A stretch of DNA of 64,000 bases from Alphaproteobacteria bacterium (GTDB taxonomy: Bacteria; Pseudomonadota; Alphaproteobacteria; Micropepsales; Micropepsaceae). Below, one piece after another: positions 12,845-59,498 of the stretch. Every line of letters begins with the position of its first letter. Positions within the stretch are counted from its first letter, which is position 1. The DNA lies in NCBI GenBank assembly GCA_028865545.1, contig JAGWJY010000002.1, positions 1 through 64,000 on the forward strand. The letters run 5' to 3'. A program made the position numbers and the translations under genes. Below the pieces are notes generated by a model that made no database searches, had not been told where the DNA came from, and saw only the letters and a program-made list of their open reading frames with translations.

Positions 12845-13380
12845 CCGCCGCAGCCGCCATACCCTGCCTTCATGTTTACAAACGGCCCACATCACTTTCG
12901 AGGGGATAGTCTAGGATTTTCCCGGGAGCACATTCGGTATCAGGCGGGCATTTTAGTATTCTTACGATCATCCATCACCGCGAGGCGGTGGCCGGGCTGA
13001 CGGGAGTCATGAGATCATCGCCGTCGCTGGCGAAGCGAAGGCACCAACCGTCGATCCCGGAATCACGCAGATATTGCAGCCGCTCTCCGATGCCACCGCA
13101 CAAAACTGATCCGAGCGTGCGAGGTTCACGCCCTTTCCACGACACTATTGGAAAAAAAAGACGGTATTTTTGACGGTATTTCGATCTTCCAAACAAAAAA
13201 CATCCAATGAAATCAATGAGAGTAAATCCTAGTCCCCCCGCCAGCACCAGCTCCATTATGCATCAAGCCCACCTGCCGGAAGCGCGGCTATTGCCGCGAC
13301 ACCGCACGTGAACAGCCCCCTCAAACAGTGCGCTGCTTGAGATGTCCCGCGTCCGCGGAGCGCCGTGCGGTCCTGCTCTT
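12845..13380. other. Intergenic stretch without a convincing gene
   Basis: 536 nt between the APH-like kinase and the GntR gene. A minus-strand frame at 12975-13256 (93 codons) and one at 13263-13565 overlapping the GntR gene lack recognisable domains and good starts. The segment ERLQYLRDSGIDGW in the first may be a decayed remnant. A short tandem repeat lies at 13160-13181. No tRNA or clear terminator was recognised. It marks the border between the exopolysaccharide locus and the catabolic island. Confidence 0.5.
13160..13181 (+). repeat. Tandem direct repeat GACGGTATTT x2
   Basis: GACGGTATTT occurs at 13160-13169 and again at 13172-13181, separated by TT, just after an A8 run. It is too short to assign a function; it could be a regulator site or the trace of an insertion. 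Confidence 0.6.
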
Positions 13381-51230: not shown

Positions 51231-51605
51231 CTAGTAAACGGTACGCGCCCACGTCATGTATCGTTCGAGTTCTTCCTTCGTAACACGAAGGTCGACGAAA
51301 CGCGGCTGCTCTTCTCCGGGTGCGACGAGGGCCGACATATCGTCGGCAAGCTTCAGGCCGCTGGTGATCTCGCGGGTAAGACGTCCATGGTCTGCCTCAT
51401 CCGGCGGTTTTCCATAAACATCGATGACCTGGACGATATTGTTCGCAAACCAAAACTGCGGGCGCTCCGACTGCTCCGCGATATGGGCTAACGGAAGGCG
51501 TTCGTTCAAAGCTTTCTGATATGCGGTGCGGGCTGCATCGGATAGCGTCTCAGCGCCCTGAAGCGTGACGGATGAAGCCGTGCGGTGAAAACGCTGCAAC
51601 AACAT
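51231..51605 (-). CDS. Hypothetical protein, 124 residues
   Basis: A minus-strand frame of credible composition: helical N-terminal half (ETLSDAARTAYQKALNERLP), then FWFANNIVQVIDVYGKPP, GLKLADDMSALVAPGEEQPRF and an amphipathic C-terminal helix KEELERYMTWAR. There is no signal peptide, membrane helix or recognised domain. AAGG is 11 nt before ATG 51605. It stands alone, convergent with the lactonase gene and next to the AT-rich segment. It may be a complete orphan gene or the end of a larger one; no continuation was found upstream. Confidence 0.55.
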   Translation of the reverse strand: MLLQRFHRTASSVTLQGAETLSDAARTAYQKALNERLPLAHIAEQSERPQFWFANNIVQVIDVYGKPPDEADHGRLTREITSGLKLADDMSALVAPGEEQPRFVDLRVTKEELERYMTWARTVY

Positions 51606-51750
51606 CTAGGCGTTCGCCTTCATAAGACTGCGATGATCCCGTGCCGCGAACCCACGTCCAATTTGCAAATTAGGCCGCGCCCCACGCTCCATCGCAGCGC
51701 ATGGGCCATTACCGTCTTTCTGACTACTGCATAATAATTATATATTATAC

Positions 51751-51785
51751 ATCGTTATGCATGTATCAACATTTCATATAACGAT
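51751..51785. repeat. Inverted pair ATCGTTAT / ATAACGAT (distal operator candidate)
   Basis: ATCGTTAT at 51751-51758 and ATAACGAT at 51778-51785, exact reverse complements, 27 nt start to start. The same word occurs twice more directly upstream of the XRE gene, which suggests binding sites of one regulator, perhaps looping. Confidence 0.5.
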
Positions 51786-51982
51786 ACACAATCGTCATTA
51801 TGGTGGCAATAACATGCCAAAAACGATCTGCGGCAATATCGACGGGCTAACTTCGCGGCCTTACGGACAGGGTCTCAATTGCCACTGAAAATATACAGTT
51901 TTTGCCGTTTTTGCTTACCTTTTAGCCGCCTATTGTCTATGTTCCAGCGTCAAAATTAAGCATATTCTCTAGTTATTAACTA

Positions 51983-52009
51983 TTGTATATATTTACTTCT
52001 TTCTATAAT
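51983..52009 (+). promoter_or_regulatory. Candidate promoter of the XRE-hyf operon
   Basis: TTGTAT at 51983-51988 and TATAAT at 52004-52009 with a 15-nt spacer. The perfect -10 box lies 46 nt before the XRE start codon, and an ATAACGAT copy begins 5 nt after it, where the transcription start would be. The spacer is short, so strength may depend on a regulator. Confidence 0.42.
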
Positions 52010-52013
52010 GCCA

Positions 52014-52045
52014 ATAACGATAATTTAAATATCATATATAACGAT
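52014..52045. promoter_or_regulatory. Direct repeat ATAACGAT x2, operator candidate of the XRE regulator
   Basis: ATAACGAT at 52014-52021 and 52038-52045, 24 nt apart (about two helical turns plus). They lie between the -10 box and the XRE start, an ideal place for autorepression. Confidence 0.5.
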
Positions 52046-52054
52046 TGAAACGTC

Positions 52055-52375
52055 ATGACGCACACCTTGTACCTCATCACGGCCTCCCAACTTCGGGCTG
52101 CCAGAGCCCTGCTCGGGCTCGACCAACGCGCGCTGGCGGAACGGGCCGGGCTGTCTCACCCGACCGTCCAGCGCATGGAGGCCAGCGAGGGCGTGATTAG
52201 GGGCAACATCGATTCGCTCGGCAAGCTCGTTTCGGCGCTGGAAGCCGCAGGTATCGAACTGCTCGGTGACGGCTTGGCGAGCAATGGTCTGGGGCGCGGT
52301 GTGCGCTTGAGGGCGCGCGACGCGACATCCGAAGGCGAAAGTCCCACCGCTTCAACACTTCTTCGGCGTCAGTAG
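52055..52375 (+). CDS. Small XRE-family HTH regulator upstream of the Hyf-like operon
   Basis: A 106-residue protein with one helix-turn-helix at residues ~8-65: ITASQLRAARALLGLDQRAL, then AERAGLSHPTVQRMEASEG. The C-terminal ~35 residues are probably disordered. This is the compact XRE type found singly in alphaproteobacteria, usually an autorepressor. It is 10 nt ahead of hyfB on the same strand and is therefore probably co-transcribed. Repeated ATAACGAT words upstream are its likely targets. No strong Shine-Dalgarno is visible before ATG 52055. Confidence 0.82.
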   Translation: MTHTLYLITASQLRAARALLGLDQRALAERAGLSHPTVQRMEASEGVIRGNIDSLGKLVSALEAAGIELLGDGLASNGLGRGVRLRARDATSEGESPTASTLLRRQ

Positions 52376-52385
52376 GAAGGCTGCG

Positions 52386-54395
52386 ATGATCGTCGTCGGT
52401 GTGCTGTCGTGCGTCGCCGCGTTGACTGCTCTTGCCTGCCTTGCCGTAAGCGCCAATCAGAAGCGTCAGGCGAATACCCTGATCTATGGCGCCAGCGCAG
52501 CGATTTGCGGTGTCGGCCTCGCCTGCGCCCTAGCGGCTCTCTATAGCGGCGCAGCGTCGACCGTAATTCTGCCGCTGGGCTTGCCCTGGCTCGGCATGCA
52601 TTTTCGGGTGGATGCTCTGGCGGCGGCCTTCCTATGCGTCGTCAACGTGGGAGGAGTCGCGGCAAGCGTCTTCGCCCTCGGCTACGGCCGCCATGAAGCC
52701 GCACCACAGCGTGTCCTGCCTTTTTTTCCGGCCTTTCTGGCTGCAATGAACCTTGTCGTCATCGCCGATGACGCCTTCACCTTTCTCTTATCGTGGGAAC
52801 TCATGTCACTGATGTCGTGGGCGCTGGTGATCAGCCACGACCGCACCGCTGAAAACATGCGTGCAGGCCTCATCTATATCGTGATGGCGAGCTTCGGAAC
52901 TCTGGCTCTGTTGCTGGCGTTCGGTATTCTGGCCGGCCCGGACGGGTTGTACGCGTTCTCATCCATGCGCGCGCACGGCCTGAATTCAAACTACACGATG
53001 ATCGTGATGCTTCTGACCCTGATCGGCGCGGGATCAAAAGCCGGGATATTTCCGCTGCATACCTGGCTGCCCTTGGCGCACCCGGCGGCGCCCAGCCATG
53101 CCTCCGCGCTGATGAGCGGCGTCATGACGAAGGTGGCCGTCTACGCCTTCATCCGGATCGTCTTCGATCTCCTGGGGCCGATCGATTGGCGCCTTGCCAT
53201 GATCGTCATCGGCGTCGGGGCCGTCACGGCGTTGATGGGCGTGCTCTATGCGCTGATGCAGCATGATTTGAAACGCCTGCTTGCCTATCACACCGTCGAA
53301 AACATCGGCATCATCTTCGTAGGATTGGGCCTGGCGTTGGCGTTCCGCGCAAACGGCCTGGCCGCAGCCGCGGCGCTCGCCGCCACCGCGGCGCTGTTTC
53401 ACGTCTTCAATCACTCGCTGTTCAAAAGCCTATTGTTCTTTGGCGCCGGCGCCGTCCAGACCGCCACGGGTGAACGCGACATGGACCATCTGGGCGGTCT
53501 CATCCACACCATGCCGCGGACCGCCATCGCTTTTCTCGTCGGCGCTGCGGCGATTTCCGCCCTGCCGCCGCTGAACGGATTCGCATCGGAATGGCTGACG
53601 TTTCAGGCCGTCTTTCTCAGTTCCACCTTTCCACAGTGGGGCCTGCGCCTCCTGGCCCCGGCGGCGGGCGCGCTTCTGGCGTTGTCTGCGGCGCTGGCGG
53701 CGGCCTGTTTCGTCAAGGCGTTCGGCATCAGTTTTCTGGGCCGCGCCCGCAGCAACGCAGCGCAAAACGCCAAGGAGACCGATAAGGCGTCGCTCACCGC
53801 AATGCTCGGTCTCGCCGCGGCTTGCGGTTTCGCCGGCATTTTTCCGGGCCTTTTCACCAATCTGCTTGCGCCCGCCACACAATTTCTGACGACAAGCCGG
53901 ATGCCGGTGCAGGCGATGGCCGCACCCTGGACCCCATTGTTGCCGGTGGCTGCGAGCCACAATTCCTACAGTGGCTTTGTCATCGCCACCTGTCTGGTCA
54001 TCGCGACGGCGCTAACTGCATCCGTCGTTCGCGCGTTCGCGAACAATGCTACGCGTCGTAGCGCCGCCTGGGACTGCGGATATCCGGAGGCAAGTCCAAC
54101 AACGCAGTATACCGCCGGGAGCTTTGCCCAACCCATACGCCGGGTATTCGCCACGATTGCGTTTCGTGCGCGCGAGCAGGTTACCATGCCGGCGCCTACG
54201 GACACCGGCGCGGCACAGTTTCTGCTGACGCTGCGCGATCCTGCTTGGGACTTTCTTTACACGCCTATCGGGAGGAGTGTCGATTTTCTGGCGGATCATT
54301 TCAATCGGTTCCAATTTCTTACCATTCGTCGTTACCTCGGCTTGGTGTTCCTGACGCTTGTCTTCCTGCTCACGGTGTTGGTGCTATGGGCATAA
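52386..54395 (+). CDS. hyfB: Hyf-like complex antiporter-type subunit B (HyfB / NuoL-like)
   Basis: A 669-residue membrane protein with about sixteen helices. The Mrp/NuoL-type core contains DDAFTFLLSWELMSLMSWAL (with the channel glutamate), GAGSKAGIFPLHTWLPLAHP (channel lysine) and LLAYHTVENIGIIFVGLGLA. HyfB-type subunits form a proton- or sodium-translocating half-channel in energy-converting hydrogenases and related complexes. AGGAAGG lies about 5 nt before ATG 52386. Its stop overlaps hyfC by 10 nt. The C-terminal ~150 residues include a long soluble stretch as in other HyfB proteins. Confidence 0.9.
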   Translation: MIVVGVLSCVAALTALACLAVSANQKRQANTLIYGASAAICGVGLACALAALYSGAASTVILPLGLPWLGMHFRVDALAAAFLCVVNVGGVAASVFALGYGRHEAAPQRVLPFFPAFLAAMNLVVIADDAFTFLLSWELMSLMSWALVISHDRTAENMRAGLIYIVMASFGTLALLLAFGILAGPDGLYAFSSMRAHGLNSNYTMIVMLLTLIGAGSKAGIFPLHTWLPLAHPAAPSHASALMSGVMTKVAVYAFIRIVFDLLGPIDWRLAMIVIGVGAVTALMGVLYALMQHDLKRLLAYHTVENIGIIFVGLGLALAFRANGLAAAAALAATAALFHVFNHSLFKSLLFFGAGAVQTATGERDMDHLGGLIHTMPRTAIAFLVGAAAISALPPLNGFASEWLTFQAVFLSSTFPQWGLRLLAPAAGALLALSAALAAACFVKAFGISFLGRARSNAAQNAKETDKASLTAMLGLAAACGFAGIFPGLFTNLLAPATQFLTTSRMPVQAMAAPWTPLLPVAASHNSYSGFVIATCLVIATALTASVVRAFANNATRRSAAWDCGYPEASPTTQYTAGSFAQPIRRVFATIAFRAREQVTMPAPTDTGAAQFLLTLRDPAWDFLYTPIGRSVDFLADHFNRFQFLTIRRYLGLVFLTLVFLLTVLVLWA

Positions 54396-55342
54396 CCGGC
54401 ACATTGGCCTTGCAGGCCGTTCAAGCGATATTGGCAGTGGCGCTGGCGCCGCTCCTTACGGGCCTCGTCCGCAAAATGAAGGCCAGGCTGCTATGCCGCC
54501 TCGGCGCGAGCATCTTTCAGCCTTATCGCGATATTTTCCGCCTGCTGCGCAAGGAAGTCGTGCTCGCACCCAACGCTTCCTGGCTGTTCTCAGGCGTTCC
54601 ATATTTTGTCTGCGCCGCCACATGGGTCGCGGCCATGCTCGTGCCCACTTTCACATTCGACGTGAGGCTGGCACCGGCGGCCGATCTCATCGCCATTGTC
54701 GGGCTTTTGGCGAGTGCCCGCTTCGCGCTGGCGCTTGCCGGCCTCGACGTCGGTACCAGTTTTGGCGGCATCGGAGCCAGTCGGGAAATGATGATCGCCT
54801 CAGTCGCCGAGCCGGCCATGCTGATGCTCATTTTCTCGCTGGCGTTGGTCGCCGGAACGACACGGCTTCCGGACATTGCGGCCTTCGTGCAATCGCCAGC
54901 CCTGGGGCTGCATATCTCCTTGATGTTGGCGTTTGTCGGTCTCGTCATGATCGCGGTCGCCGAGAACGGCCGCATACCGATCGACAATCCCGCAACCCAT
55001 CTCGAACTGACCATGGTGCACGAAGCCATGGTGCTCGAATATTCCGGCCGGCATCTGGCGCTGATAGAGCTCGCCAGCTCAATGAAGCTCTTGCTTTACG
55101 TCTCTCTTGTTTCCGCAGTCTTTCTGCCATGGGGAATCGCGTCCGACGGCGCGAGCGCAGCGCAGTATGGTGTGGGGACCCTGCTCTATCTGGCCAAACT
55201 GTTTGTCGCCGCCAATCTACTCGGCTTCTTCGAAGTGACCGTCGCGAAGATGCGCGTCTTCCGAGTGCCGCAGTTCATCGGCGCGGCGCTCATGCTCGGA
55301 CTGTTGGCGGCGCTGCTCCGCATCGTTTCGGAGAGCCTGTAG
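54386..55342 (+). CDS. hyfC: Hyf-like complex subunit C (HyfC / NuoH-like)
   Basis: A 318-residue protein with about eight helices, matching the NuoH/HyfC family. GLVRKMKARLLCRLGASIFQPYRDIFRLLRKE is the quinone- or membrane-arm contact loop (start and end only); ENGRIPIDNPATHLELTMVHEA holds the conserved glutamates. It anchors the soluble module to the membrane arm. ATG 54386 overlaps the hyfB stop and gives the family-standard N terminus, so the frame from 54245 is rejected. Confidence 0.9.
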   Translation: MGITGTLALQAVQAILAVALAPLLTGLVRKMKARLLCRLGASIFQPYRDIFRLLRKEVVLAPNASWLFSGVPYFVCAATWVAAMLVPTFTFDVRLAPAADLIAIVGLLASARFALALAGLDVGTSFGGIGASREMMIASVAEPAMLMLIFSLALVAGTTRLPDIAAFVQSPALGLHISLMLAFVGLVMIAVAENGRIPIDNPATHLELTMVHEAMVLEYSGRHLALIELASSMKLLLYVSLVSAVFLPWGIASDGASAAQYGVGTLLYLAKLFVAANLLGFFEVTVAKMRVFRVPQFIGAALMLGLLAALLRIVSESL

Positions 55343-56005
55343 ATGACCGTCTTCGCTTTGGATATGTCCCATTTCCTTGCCGGCGGTCTGGTGCTGCTGA
55401 GTTTCACGCTGCTTTATCAGGACAGATTGCCGCCGTTGATCAACGCCTATGCGATCCAGTCGCTGTTCCTTTCTCTGTCCGTCGCATGGCAAGCCCAGAT
55501 TCAGCACGCACCGCATCTCCTCGTCACGGCGGGGATCGCGCTGTGCTTCAAGGCGATCGTGATTCCACTCGTCCTGCACCGGTTGATCCGAAATTTGCGC
55601 ATTCACCGCACTGTCGAAACCGTGGTCGACATCGGCCCGACCATGATCGCGGGAATGGCGCTGGTCGGGCTGTCGATGGCGCTCATGATGCGCGCCACGT
55701 CCGGCATCGATGTCCTGGCGCGCGAAGATTTGGCATTCGCTTTGTCCGTCATCCTGCTCGGCCTGCTGATCATGGTCACCAGACGCAACGCCGTCAGCCA
55801 GGTGATCGGCTTCATGTCGGTTGAAAACGGCCTCATCCTGGCGGCCACGGGCGCAAAGGGCATGCCGTTCGTCGTGGAGACCAGCGTCGCCTTCTCGATC
55901 CTGATCGCGTTCATCGTCATCGGGATATTCCTTTTCCGCATTCGCGAACGCTTCGACACCGTCGACGTCGCAATCCTGGACCGCTTCAGGGGCGAGCGTT
56001 TATGA
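55343..56005 (+). CDS. hyfE: Hyf-like complex subunit E (HyfE, NuoK-containing)
   Basis: A 220-residue protein with six to seven helices; the central part resembles NuoK fused to extra helices, as in E. coli HyfE. Landmarks are HFLAGGLVLLSFTLLYQDRL, VVDIGPTMIAGMALVG and GFMSVENGLILAATGA with the NuoK-type glutamate. It follows hyfC without a gap (TAG then ATG) and overlaps hyfF by 4 nt. It is a structural and probably ion-channel part of the membrane arm. Confidence 0.88.
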   Translation: MTVFALDMSHFLAGGLVLLSFTLLYQDRLPPLINAYAIQSLFLSLSVAWQAQIQHAPHLLVTAGIALCFKAIVIPLVLHRLIRNLRIHRTVETVVDIGPTMIAGMALVGLSMALMMRATSGIDVLAREDLAFALSVILLGLLIMVTRRNAVSQVIGFMSVENGLILAATGAKGMPFVVETSVAFSILIAFIVIGIFLFRIRERFDTVDVAILDRFRGERL

Positions 56006-57450
56006 CCGAGCTTCTGAACCCCGCAACCGCCATATTGATTATTCCGACGGCAGCAGCGTTGCTGCTAACGCTGATATCCAGTTATCGGATCGCGGCGTGG
56101 ATCAACGTCGCTGCGGCCTTCCTGACATTCACCTGCGCTCTCAGCTTGCTGGTGTGGCGGCCGACTGGGCTTGGGCACCTGCTGCAAGTCGACGATCTGA
56201 ACATCGTATTCATCGTTCTCAACACGCTTGTCGGCTTCACCACAAGCCTCTTCAGCCGGGGTTACATCGCGCACGAACTGGAAGCCGGACGCCTGAAGCC
56301 GGCGCATCTGCGTTTCTATCATGCCATGTATCAGGTGTTGATGGGAGCGATGAACCTTGCGCTTCTCACCAGCATCACCGGACTGATGTGGGTGGCCATC
56401 GAACTTGCGACACTGACCACCATCCTGATGGTCGGCATCTACCGCACGCATGAAGCGCTCGAGGCCGCGTGGAAATATTTCATCCTGGGCAGCGTTGGCA
56501 TTGCGCTCGCTCTGTTCGGTACGATCCTGATTTATTCGGTTGCGCAGCCTGTCGTCGGCAACGGCCTTCCCGCCATGACGTGGAGCACGTTGACGGCGCA
56601 CGCGGCGCATTTCGACCCCATGATCCTCAACATCGCGTTTGTCTTCCTCCTCCTGGGCTACGGCACCAAGGCCGGGCTGGTCCCACTCCACGCCTGGCTG
56701 CCGGATGCCCACGCGGAGGGACCGACGCCGATCTCGGCGGTGCTGTCCGGGTTGCTGTTGAACGTCGCGATCTACGCAATCTTGCGCTTCAAAATGGTGC
56801 TTGCCCGCAATCCCGAGACGATCGCACCAGGACCCATAATGATGACCATGGGTCTTGTCTCCATTATTTTCGCCGGGCTGATGCTGTACCGCCGCCGCGA
56901 CATAAAGCGCTTTTTCGCGTTCTCCTCGATCGAGCATATGGGCATCATTGCGTTCGCCTTCGGCCTGGGCGGTCCCTTGGCGAATTTCGCCGGCCTTTTG
57001 CATATGGCCATGCATAGCCTTACGAAGTCCGGCATATTCTTCGCGGTCGGCCACATCACCCGCATCAAAAATACGCAAAAGATCAGCGAGATCACGGGCC
57101 TCACGACGAGCCATCCGATGCTGGGATGGATCCTCGTGGCAAGCGTCGTCGCCATCGCGGGCCTTCCGCCTTTCGGCGTATTCACCAGCGAGTTCCTCGT
57201 CGTGAGCTCGGCGTTTGCACACCGCCCTCTGCTGGCGTTGCCACTGGTTATCGGCCTCCTTATCGCGCTTGGAGCGCTCTTTCTGAGATTGAACAGCATC
57301 GCTTTCGGCGAACCCAGCGGCAGCATGGCACCCGACCGCATGTCTCCCTTGCCGATCCTGTTCCATCTGGGACTCGTGCTGATGATCGGCATTTTCATTC
57401 CCGGGCCCATCGTCAGTTGGTTCCAGCACATCGCAGCGTTGTTGGGCTAG
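56002..57450 (+). CDS. hyfF: Hyf-like complex antiporter-type subunit F (HyfF / NuoN-like)
   Basis: A 482-residue protein with about fourteen helices. The antiporter core is visible: GLMWVAIELATLTTILMVGI (channel glutamate), GYGTKAGLVPLHAWLPDAHA (channel lysine) and RFFAFSSIEHMGIIAFAFGL. Together with HyfB this gives two ion-translocating subunits; HyfD, a third in E. coli hydrogenase 4, is absent from the operon. The start overlaps hyfE (ATGA). The length is normal for HyfF. Confidence 0.9.
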   Translation: MTELLNPATAILIIPTAAALLLTLISSYRIAAWINVAAAFLTFTCALSLLVWRPTGLGHLLQVDDLNIVFIVLNTLVGFTTSLFSRGYIAHELEAGRLKPAHLRFYHAMYQVLMGAMNLALLTSITGLMWVAIELATLTTILMVGIYRTHEALEAAWKYFILGSVGIALALFGTILIYSVAQPVVGNGLPAMTWSTLTAHAAHFDPMILNIAFVFLLLGYGTKAGLVPLHAWLPDAHAEGPTPISAVLSGLLLNVAIYAILRFKMVLARNPETIAPGPIMMTMGLVSIIFAGLMLYRRRDIKRFFAFSSIEHMGIIAFAFGLGGPLANFAGLLHMAMHSLTKSGIFFAVGHITRIKNTQKISEITGLTTSHPMLGWILVASVVAIAGLPPFGVFTSEFLVVSSAFAHRPLLALPLVIGLLIALGALFLRLNSIAFGEPSGSMAPDRMSPLPILFHLGLVLMIGIFIPGPIVSWFQHIAALLG

Positions 57451-57456
57451 ACGCAT

Positions 57457-58950
57457 ATGATCACGCTCGCCGACATCATTGTTGACGCCGCCGCCGGCCA
57501 ATGGCCGCGCGTGCCGGTTTCAGCCGATCTCTGGGATCTTGCCGGCCAACAACTTGCCGCGGGCACATGGACGCTGGTCGCTCATTGGGGCGAACCCACC
57601 ACGGTGCACGCAGCGTTGCGCGAGCCGGCAACCGGCACGACGGGCATCTTGAGTCTCGACGCGACCAACGGACACTTTCCATCACTGGGCCGCTATGCCC
57701 CAGCCGCACGGCGGCTTGAGCGCACCATCCGTGACCTCGTCGGTCTGGAACCGGAGGGCGCACCAGACCTTCGCTCCTGGCTCGATCATGGCCGCTGGGA
57801 CGTGCGTCACCCGCTTGGTGTACAGGTGCCAGCCGTAGCACCGGAACCCTATCGTTTTCTCCCTGTCGACGGAGAAGGTTTGCATCAGATCCCCGTCGGA
57901 CCCGTCCATGCTGGTATTATCGAACCGGGGCATTTCCGCTTCACCGCGAGCGGCGAAACCGTGGTCCGCCTGGAAGAACGCCTCGGCTATGTGCATAAGG
58001 GGATCGAAGGCCTTCTGCTCGGCGCACCGTTGGATCGTGCCGCGAAGCTGGCCGGGCGCGCATCCGGAGACAGCACGGTCGCCTACGCCATCGCCTTCGC
58101 GCAAGCGGTAGAAGCGGCGTGTGGCGTGTCGGTTCCCTTGAGGGCCGCCTATTTGCGCGCGATCATGCTTGAGCTCGAGCGCATCGCCAACCATGTCGGC
58201 GATATCGGCGCCGTCTGCAACGACGCCGCCTTCAGCCTCATGCATGCGCACTGTGCGATCATGCGCGAGCGCGTGCTGCGCGCGGCGGATCTCGCCTTCG
58301 GTCATCGCCTGATGATGGATCGCGTCGTACCGGGCGGCATCGCAAAAGATATTGACCAGAAGGGCAAGAGCCATATCTCCAAATTGCTCGCCCAAATCGG
58401 CAAACAATTTCCGGCGCTGATCACAATTTACGAGGACACGGCGTCGCTGCAGGACCGTACCGTGCGGACGGGCATGGTACGGCACGATCTTGTGGCGCAG
58501 TTCGGTGCCGGCGGCTATGTGGGACGTGCGTCCGGTCGCAGCTTCGATGCGCGCAAGAATTTTCCATGCCAACCCTACGAGACACTTGATTTCGAGGTTC
58601 CGACCCTGGAGCGCGGCGACGTCGACGCCCGCGTCCGCATTCGCATTCGCGAAGTCGAGCAGAGCCTTTCACTTTTGCGACAGTTGCTGGCACAGCTGCC
58701 CGAAGGCGACATTTGGGTGCCTATCATTCCGCGGCTGGCCGAAGGCTCAACACTCGTCGAGGGTTTCCGCGGCGATATTTTCGCGTGGGTGCGCATGAAC
58801 GAGGATGGCACGATCGCGCGTTGCCATCTGCGCGACCCGTCGTGCTTCCAATGGCCGCTCCTCGAGGTAGCGATTGATGGCAACATCGTCGCGGACTTCC
58901 CGCTCTGCAACAAGTCGTTCAACTGTTCCTATGCGGGGCACGACCTCTGA
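57457..58950 (+). CDS. Hyf-like large subunit (HyfG-like) lacking the NiFe-site cysteines
   Basis: A 497-residue protein: a NuoC-like domain at ~1-140 and a hydrogenase large subunit/NuoD-like domain at ~145-497 (PVHAGIIEPGHFRF, RLEERLGYVHKGIE, LELERIANHVGDIG). In true group-4 hydrogenases the L1 motif reads RxCGxCG; here it is R201-A-S203-G-D-S206-T, so both NiFe ligands are serine. The C-terminal DPCxxC is also absent; the protein ends FPLCNKSFNCSYAGHDL with cysteines five residues apart (C484, C490). Hence it cannot bind a NiFe centre and belongs to the energy-converting-hydrogenase-related (Ehr) class. It overlaps hyfI by 1 nt (TGATG). Confidence 0.88.
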   Translation: MITLADIIVDAAAGQWPRVPVSADLWDLAGQQLAAGTWTLVAHWGEPTTVHAALREPATGTTGILSLDATNGHFPSLGRYAPAARRLERTIRDLVGLEPEGAPDLRSWLDHGRWDVRHPLGVQVPAVAPEPYRFLPVDGEGLHQIPVGPVHAGIIEPGHFRFTASGETVVRLEERLGYVHKGIEGLLLGAPLDRAAKLAGRASGDSTVAYAIAFAQAVEAACGVSVPLRAAYLRAIMLELERIANHVGDIGAVCNDAAFSLMHAHCAIMRERVLRAADLAFGHRLMMDRVVPGGIAKDIDQKGKSHISKLLAQIGKQFPALITIYEDTASLQDRTVRTGMVRHDLVAQFGAGGYVGRASGRSFDARKNFPCQPYETLDFEVPTLERGDVDARVRIRIREVEQSLSLLRQLLAQLPEGDIWVPIIPRLAEGSTLVEGFRGDIFAWVRMNEDGTIARCHLRDPSCFQWPLLEVAIDGNIVADFPLCNKSFNCSYAGHDL

Positions 58951-59498
58951 TGCGCAAACTTCTGTTCAAAAGTGTTCTTGCGCTGCCGCTTACAGAGCGC
59001 GCGCCCCCTGTCGACGATCGCGCGCTCGCCGAACTGGCAGAGAAAGTCCAAGCCACGGCGCGAAGGCGCTTGGGCAGAAGTCTTTCCATACGCCAGGTCG
59101 ACGCAGGCTCATGCAATGGTTGCGAGCTCGAAATCCATGCCCTCAGCAATGCATTCTACGATCTGGAGCGGTTCGGCTTTCACTTCGTCGCCTCGCCGCG
59201 CCACGCCGACGTTCTGCTTGTAACTGGGCCAGTCACCGCCAACATGCGGGAGGCGCTCGAGCGGACTTATGCCGCGACCCCGGATCCAAAATGGGTGGTG
59301 GCCGTGGGTGCCTGCGCGCTCGACGGCGGCCTCTTTTCCGGAAGCTACGGCGTCGTCGGTGGCGTGAGCGCCGTCGTACCGGTGGACCTGCACATCCGTG
59401 GGTGTCCGCCAAGCCCCCGAGACCTGCTGGCAGGACTCCTTGCGCTCATGAAGCGGAAGATTCCGCGACGCATCCTCAAGGCCCAAGCCGGGCGCTAG
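58950..59498 (+). CDS. hyfI: Hyf-like small subunit (HyfI / NuoB-like), one 4Fe-4S cluster
   Basis: A 182-residue protein with all four ligands of the NuoB/small-subunit [4Fe-4S] cluster: C55 and C58 in GSCNGCELE, C122 in VGACAL and C152 in IRGCPP. It would pass electrons between the HyfG-like site and a quinone or membrane interface. It is the last gene of the operon. No HyfA/HyfH-type 2x[4Fe-4S] ferredoxin subunit is encoded in the operon or nearby, so the electron entry path differs from hydrogenase 4. Confidence 0.9.
   Translation: MRKLLFKSVLALPLTERAPPVDDRALAELAEKVQATARRRLGRSLSIRQVDAGSCNGCELEIHALSNAFYDLERFGFHFVASPRHADVLLVTGPVTANMREALERTYAATPDPKWVVAVGACALDGGLFSGSYGVVGGVSAVVPVDLHIRGCPPSPRDLLAGLLALMKRKIPRRILKAQAGR

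Follow-up and report, generated by a model that had tools for sequence, protein, structure and literature searches.

Introduction

The C proteins of restriction-modification systems are small autoregulatory HTH dimers, and the Ni-Fe ligands of hydrogenases are the CxxC cysteine motifs of the large subunit. What triggers Ehr complexes under physiological conditions is poorly known. In PMC6349859, several of the cited Ehr examples adjoin formate dehydrogenase genes, and experimental tests of these complexes are called for. For E. coli hipBA, PMC3920265 describes four HipB sites, of consensus TATCC-N8-GGATA, in the operon's own promoter.

Here we analyze a 330-base intergenic segment (51725-52054; 66% A+T) in front of a small XRE-family regulator gene and a hydrogenase-4-like (hyf) operon, which a first-pass annotation had flagged for four copies of the word ATAACGAT. 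We consider it likely, from comparison of sequences, that the segment is a divergent promoter with two palindromic operators (O1 and O2), and that the adjacent XRE protein would repress its own hyf operon through O2 and a divergent gene, X, through O1.

Results

The XRE-hyf locus and its relatives

In the window (the whole 64-kb stretch of DNA that was analyzed), the XRE gene is followed by six hydrogenase-4/complex-I-like genes that reach as far as 59498 (Table 1), which bears out the first-pass view that it stands at the head of a hyf-type operon. The XRE protein scored 31.1 bits against the Y4mF/HipB-type model TIGR03070, below the cut-off of 71.65. Its recognition helix reads SHPTV, as it does in G031 (L084) and G021 (L085); the other aligned family members carry SVPTI/SVPTV, SLPTI or close variants, and operator specificity may be shifting in the SHPTV clade. 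The same genome encodes a paralogue, 70% identical, on contig C49. Tandem XRE pairs stand in front of hyfB at L132, L135 and L146 (G067, G078 and G013, respectively).

Table 1. Genes, predicted promoter elements, predicted operators and ATAACGAT words at the XRE-hyf locus, by position in the window.
Feature	Position	Strand	Evidence or remark
Gene X, 124 aa, divergent	51231..51605	-	Window protein unmatched in Pfam, NCBIfam and PADLOC
O1, distal operator (predicted), TTATATATTATACATCG	51738..51754		In promoter region of divergent gene X; 17.1 bits
Word 1, ATAACGAT	51751-51758	minus (ATCGTTAT on plus)	ATCG part is outer arm of O1
Word 2, ATAACGAT	51778-51785	+	Over most of the predicted X -10 hexamer
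Predicted X promoter, TTGCCA-N17-TATCGT	-10 hexamer 51786-51781	minus	Consensus scan
TATAAT, probable -10 of XRE-hyf promoter, weak -35	52004..52009	+	Sequence; box not listed by consensus scan
Word 3, ATAACGAT	52014-52021	+	CGAT part is outer left arm of O2
O2, proximal operator (predicted), CGATAATTTAAATATCA	52018..52034		Just 3' of XRE-hyf TATAAT box; 16.2 bits
Word 4, ATAACGAT	52038-52045	+	O2 on one side, ATG on the other
XRE-family HTH regulator, 106 aa	52055..52375	+	Pfam HTH_3, 29.9 bits (cut-off 23)
HyfB-like antiporter-type membrane subunit	52386..54395	+	NF005086, 827 bits (cut-off 667)
HyfC/NuoH-like membrane subunit, start uncertain	54389..55342	+	Pfam NADHdh
HyfE-like membrane subunit	55343..56005	+	NF008556, 79.4 bits (below cut-off 136)
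HyfF-like antiporter-type membrane subunit	56002..57450	+	NF005043, 808 bits (cut-off 533)
HyfG/NuoD-like large subunit	57457..58950	+	Cysteine scan: no CxxC pair in 497 aa
HyfI/NuoB-like small subunit	58950..59498	+	NF005012, 137.8 bits (cut-off 116)

Gene X lies upstream of the XRE gene and is divergent, which makes the flagged segment a promoter region for both directions. The X family is small (about 110-130 aa) and its members adjoin XRE or hyf genes: homologues are found next to XRE-hyf in G031, G021 and G083, next to hyf without XRE in G061, G032, G064, G007 and G026, and next to the XRE paralogue on C49 in the same genome. DUF6668 was reached by 2 of 11 X homologues (best E 9e-5), and the best E of an X profile against PDB sequences was 0.44. 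With the AlphaFold model of X (pLDDT 89.4), Foldseek returned 0 PDB matches at E 0.001 and the best VIA-align Z was 2.4. Among the 40 loci of the XRE family, 22 have hyf and 11 have a SulP anion transporter as neighbour (L015, L016, L021-L024, L043, L046-L048 and L050), both being present in one locus and neither in the fetched flanks of 8; X accompanies the XRE family in 10 of the 40.

A conserved palindrome with two sites in the flagged segment

A palindrome was first suggested by side-by-side reading of the upstream regions. We then ran de novo palindromic EM on 36 upstreams, with the window left out, at widths of 15, 17 and 19. At width 17 this returned the palindrome TGATGTtTnAaACATCA with a log-likelihood of 229.7 (same EM on four shuffled sets: 43.2, 43.7, 53.6, and 45.7); the core was unchanged at widths 15 and 19. 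When the whole 64-kb window was scored with a PWM trained without it, O1 ranked first and O2 second (scores in Table 1), and the best match outside the flagged segment reached 11.2 bits. The same two ranks were obtained when the PWM was built from 11 named loci outside the genus; a PWM from eight Hyf-linked non-genus sites placed O1 first and O2 fourth, and with one from six SulP-linked sites O2 came first while O1 was not among the best five. Shuffling the intergenic region (n = 5,000) gave two sites of at least 16 bits in 0 cases and any one such site in 33.

Across the XRE family, a site of at least 12 bits is present in 31 of 43 upstreams versus 8 of 2,150 shuffles, the leave-one-out scoring being mildly circular for every row except the window because site positions were taken from a common EM. 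The 12 upstreams lacking such a site include those of G003, G004, G078 and L051, as well as that of G024, an upstream region truncated where its contig ends. Also among the 12 are G023 and G034, whose site is found before X, the gene that there precedes XRE in tandem. A looser pattern, TGATRTTTNAAAYATCA with at most 2 mismatches, occurs at 2 places in 3.4 Mb (reversed control: 0), one of which is O2; the other, on C74, we set aside as an operator, as it is inside an unrelated 242-aa ORF.

A strict form of the pattern, which misses the degenerate O1 and O2 of the window, was found genus-wide in 19 of 69 genomes (reversed-pattern control: 3 of 69), and 13 of its 21 loci coincide with the group's XRE, X, hyf or SulP genes. 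The remaining 8 have none of these in the fetched flank (L152, L154, L156, L157, L158, L163, L168 and L169), and these outlying matches are either chance sites or further targets. No paper was found with exact spellings of the palindrome, nor any title or abstract opening describing this regulator; both results are weak evidence, as most subscription papers and supplements were outside the search.

Layout of the two sites and of the predicted promoters

All nine X-hyf loci have a site next to X and another next to XRE or hyfB, though weakly in one locus, and in eight of the nine the two sites are the top two matches of the entire locus; the exception is G032, whose distal (second) site scores 4.1 bits. 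Five of these loci have no linked XRE gene and were outside the motif training set. Counterparts of O1 are present in G031, G021 and G083, and in G000, G031 and G021 the centre of the proximal site is exactly 29 bases upstream of the position that aligns with the ATG of the window. The two sites are separated by 280, 280, 470, 301, 200, 180, 267, 158, and 140 bases in the nine loci; a helical phasing common to all nine was not found when worked by hand over these distances (140 to 470 bases), and looping between the operators is possible. That conserved twin sites lie in the flagged segment and recur in 9 of 9 X-hyf loci supports the first-pass proposal of a regulatory region here. What had been overlooked is that the distal pair of words falls within the promoter of gene X, which is divergent, co-conserved and 124 aa long.

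At the place of the TATAAT box, G031 has TGTAAT and G021 has TGCAAT. The -35 hexamer of the predicted X promoter and its 17-base spacing are kept in G021 (-10 TATCAT) and G083 (-10 TATAGC), and not in G031, as judged by alignment. Applying the usual distance from -10 box to transcription start, we estimate that XRE-hyf transcripts would start near 52016, so that O2 would lie at or just past the start, and that X transcripts would start near 51774, which puts O1 ~27 bases downstream. Rfam gave 0 RNA element matches in the window, and 0 intrinsic terminators were found near the region.

The repeated word as a probable shoulder of the predicted operators

All four copies of ATAACGAT are indeed present, and words 3 and 4 fall between the TATAAT box and the start of the XRE gene as had been described, since the box is at 52004-52009 and the ATG at 52055. 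Dinucleotide shuffles of 51725-52054 (n = 10,000) contained a mean of 0.05 copies of the word, and four copies in none. At the same time, some 8-mer reached at least four copies in 111 of the 10,000 shuffles, so the odds are ~1% when the choice of word is free, which is unusual but not extreme. No 8-mer occurs four times in the other 330-base stretches of the window (step 10). Genome-wide, there are 49 copies of ATAACGAT in 3.4 Mb (reversed-word control: 12) against an expectation of ~63, extrapolated from the 1.19 copies that dinucleotide shuffles of the 64-kb window contained on average, and we rejected the word as a genome-wide element on this comparison. The sole pair elsewhere in the genome with members <500 bases apart is on contig C71, at a spacing of 445 bases.

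Conservation was examined in 43 upstream regions from 40 XRE-family loci, three loci having a second XRE copy. A search upstream of homologous XRE-hyf operons, which the first-pass annotation had offered as a check, went against it: the exact word was found in 1 of the 42 upstreams outside the window and in none of the 13 hyf loci checked over the whole fetched stretch. The one other carrier, G007x, has it on its own operator with the register unchanged. The word is missing in the closest orthologue, despite an XRE protein that is 86% identical and has an identical recognition helix. In a four-genome alignment the sequence differs at all four word positions, and a three-genome alignment likewise shows words 3 and 4 replaced; the counterparts of word 4 in the two nearest orthologues are ATGATGAT and ATGATAAT.

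We weighed the first-pass proposal that ATAACGAT itself is the operator, its four copies being half-sites for XRE with looping between the pairs. Its copy number beats chance, and words 1 and 3 (as well as the copy in G007x) overlap operator arms in one register. The window and the two nearest orthologues moreover share SHPTV where most of the family has SVPTI or SLPTI, so some shift in specificity is possible. Nevertheless, orthologues with that same helix lack the word, as do all but one of the other upstreams, and the pairs are arranged unequally, words 1 and 2 being inverted at 27 bases and words 3 and 4 direct at 24, which fits one symmetric dimer poorly. Taken together, we regard the word as a very unlikely operator. 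On present sequence comparisons, words 1 and 3 are best explained as the outer arms of the predicted operators plus flanking bases, and word 2 as the predicted -10 box of X. That all four are functionless repeats in AT-rich intergenic DNA would agree with the 1.1% of shuffles in which some 8-mer reaches four copies, but the conserved twin operators within the same segment contradict chance as far as the operators are concerned, and we give this explanation hardly any credence; for words 2 and 4 a chance origin is possible.

In G021, the proximal operator shares its right arm with a perfect palindrome, TATCATATATGATA (L085, about 13,320-13,335), which overlaps it there; in the window this palindrome is lost at word 4. 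The G021 sequences that correspond to words 2 and 4, ATATGATGAT and ATATGATAAT, are also alike, and because of this resemblance there may be a second element.

Proposed regulation by the XRE protein

From the operators, their conservation and their placement, all of which were computed, we infer binding and repression by XRE, as well as any role of X. An XRE dimer on O2 would overlap the expected transcription start and repress its own gene together with the hyf operon, and a second dimer on O1, downstream of the expected X start, would repress X. A signal, perhaps acting via X, would relieve this repression, and both XRE-hyf and X would be turned on. The small regulator is a probable switch for both its own energy-complex operon and the gene next to it. 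Autoregulation, as put forward in the first-pass annotation, gains support from conserved XRE-family sites at two places ~280 bases apart, but not with ATAACGAT as the recognition sequence.

The sign of control is less certain than the predicted sites. In the Mesorhizobium loci L040-L042 and in L049, the site is immediately 5' of a TTGACN box, its centre 83 to 88 bases upstream of the start codon, as might be expected if the palindrome were an activator site through which XRE activates hyf, X and SulP genes. Against this, neither site in the window lies upstream of its expected transcription start, and in five upstreams (G013, G067, G078_b, G080, and G029) the XRE start codon falls within the site, whose centre is at -5, a placement that fits a repressor. 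We consequently favor autorepression plus repression of X on account of the repressor-like places of O1 and O2 and the start-codon sites, and think activation unlikely.

A further question is which protein reads the palindrome. It might be read by another regulator of the family, such as the C49 paralogue, or by an unrelated regulator, in which case the adjacent XRE gene would be a target only. The five X-hyf loci without a linked XRE gene keep their sites, though each of their genomes has a family member elsewhere, and the C49 paralogue has a similar site of its own. On the other hand, the site tracks the XRE family, which is present in 15 of the 19 genomes with a strict site versus 15 of the 50 others (Fisher p 3e-4), and it precedes the XRE gene in named genomes from several groups. 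We think it unlikely that another regulator is responsible, and retain the adjacent XRE protein as the probable repressor.

Discussion

As this locus illustrates, a word spotted by eye may turn out to flank another site, and it may be the latter that is conserved. The pairing of one XRE family with both hyf and SulP is the most interesting lead. Tentatively, and with rather low confidence, XRE and X could form a two-gene sensing module that has been attached repeatedly to Ehr-type ion-pumping complexes and to SulP anion transporters, with one signal over both. If so, X would be a sensor or an anti-repressor and the O1/O2 set a double switch, and the signal might be, for instance, bicarbonate, pH or membrane energy; the SulP link (11 of 40 loci) narrows the candidates. 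The operator, the regulator and the partner gene also provide a handle on the Ehr trigger, e.g., through a reporter on 51606-52055.

Like HipB, the XRE protein is a small single-domain XRE-type HTH protein with several palindromic sites (predicted here) in its own promoter and a partner gene nearby. It differs in its predicted operator, which is TGATGTtTnAaACATCA and not TATCC-N8-GGATA, and in a TIGR03070 score far under the cut-off; moreover, no HipA-like gene is present among the neighbours examined, and the operon encodes a membrane redox complex. The closest solved sequence is that of a restriction-modification C protein (PDB 4yba; E 0.0006), although the operon and neighbour genes examined include no restriction-modification genes.

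The operon itself shares with Ehr complexes a hydrogenase-4-like subunit set with antiporter-like subunits, the HyfB and HyfF models being above cut-off, and a large subunit without CxxC pairs. This lack of CxxC agrees with the Ehr type as PMC6349859 describes it. Unlike several of the Ehr examples cited there, which adjoin formate dehydrogenase genes, the operon here has an XRE gene in front of it and gene X opposite.
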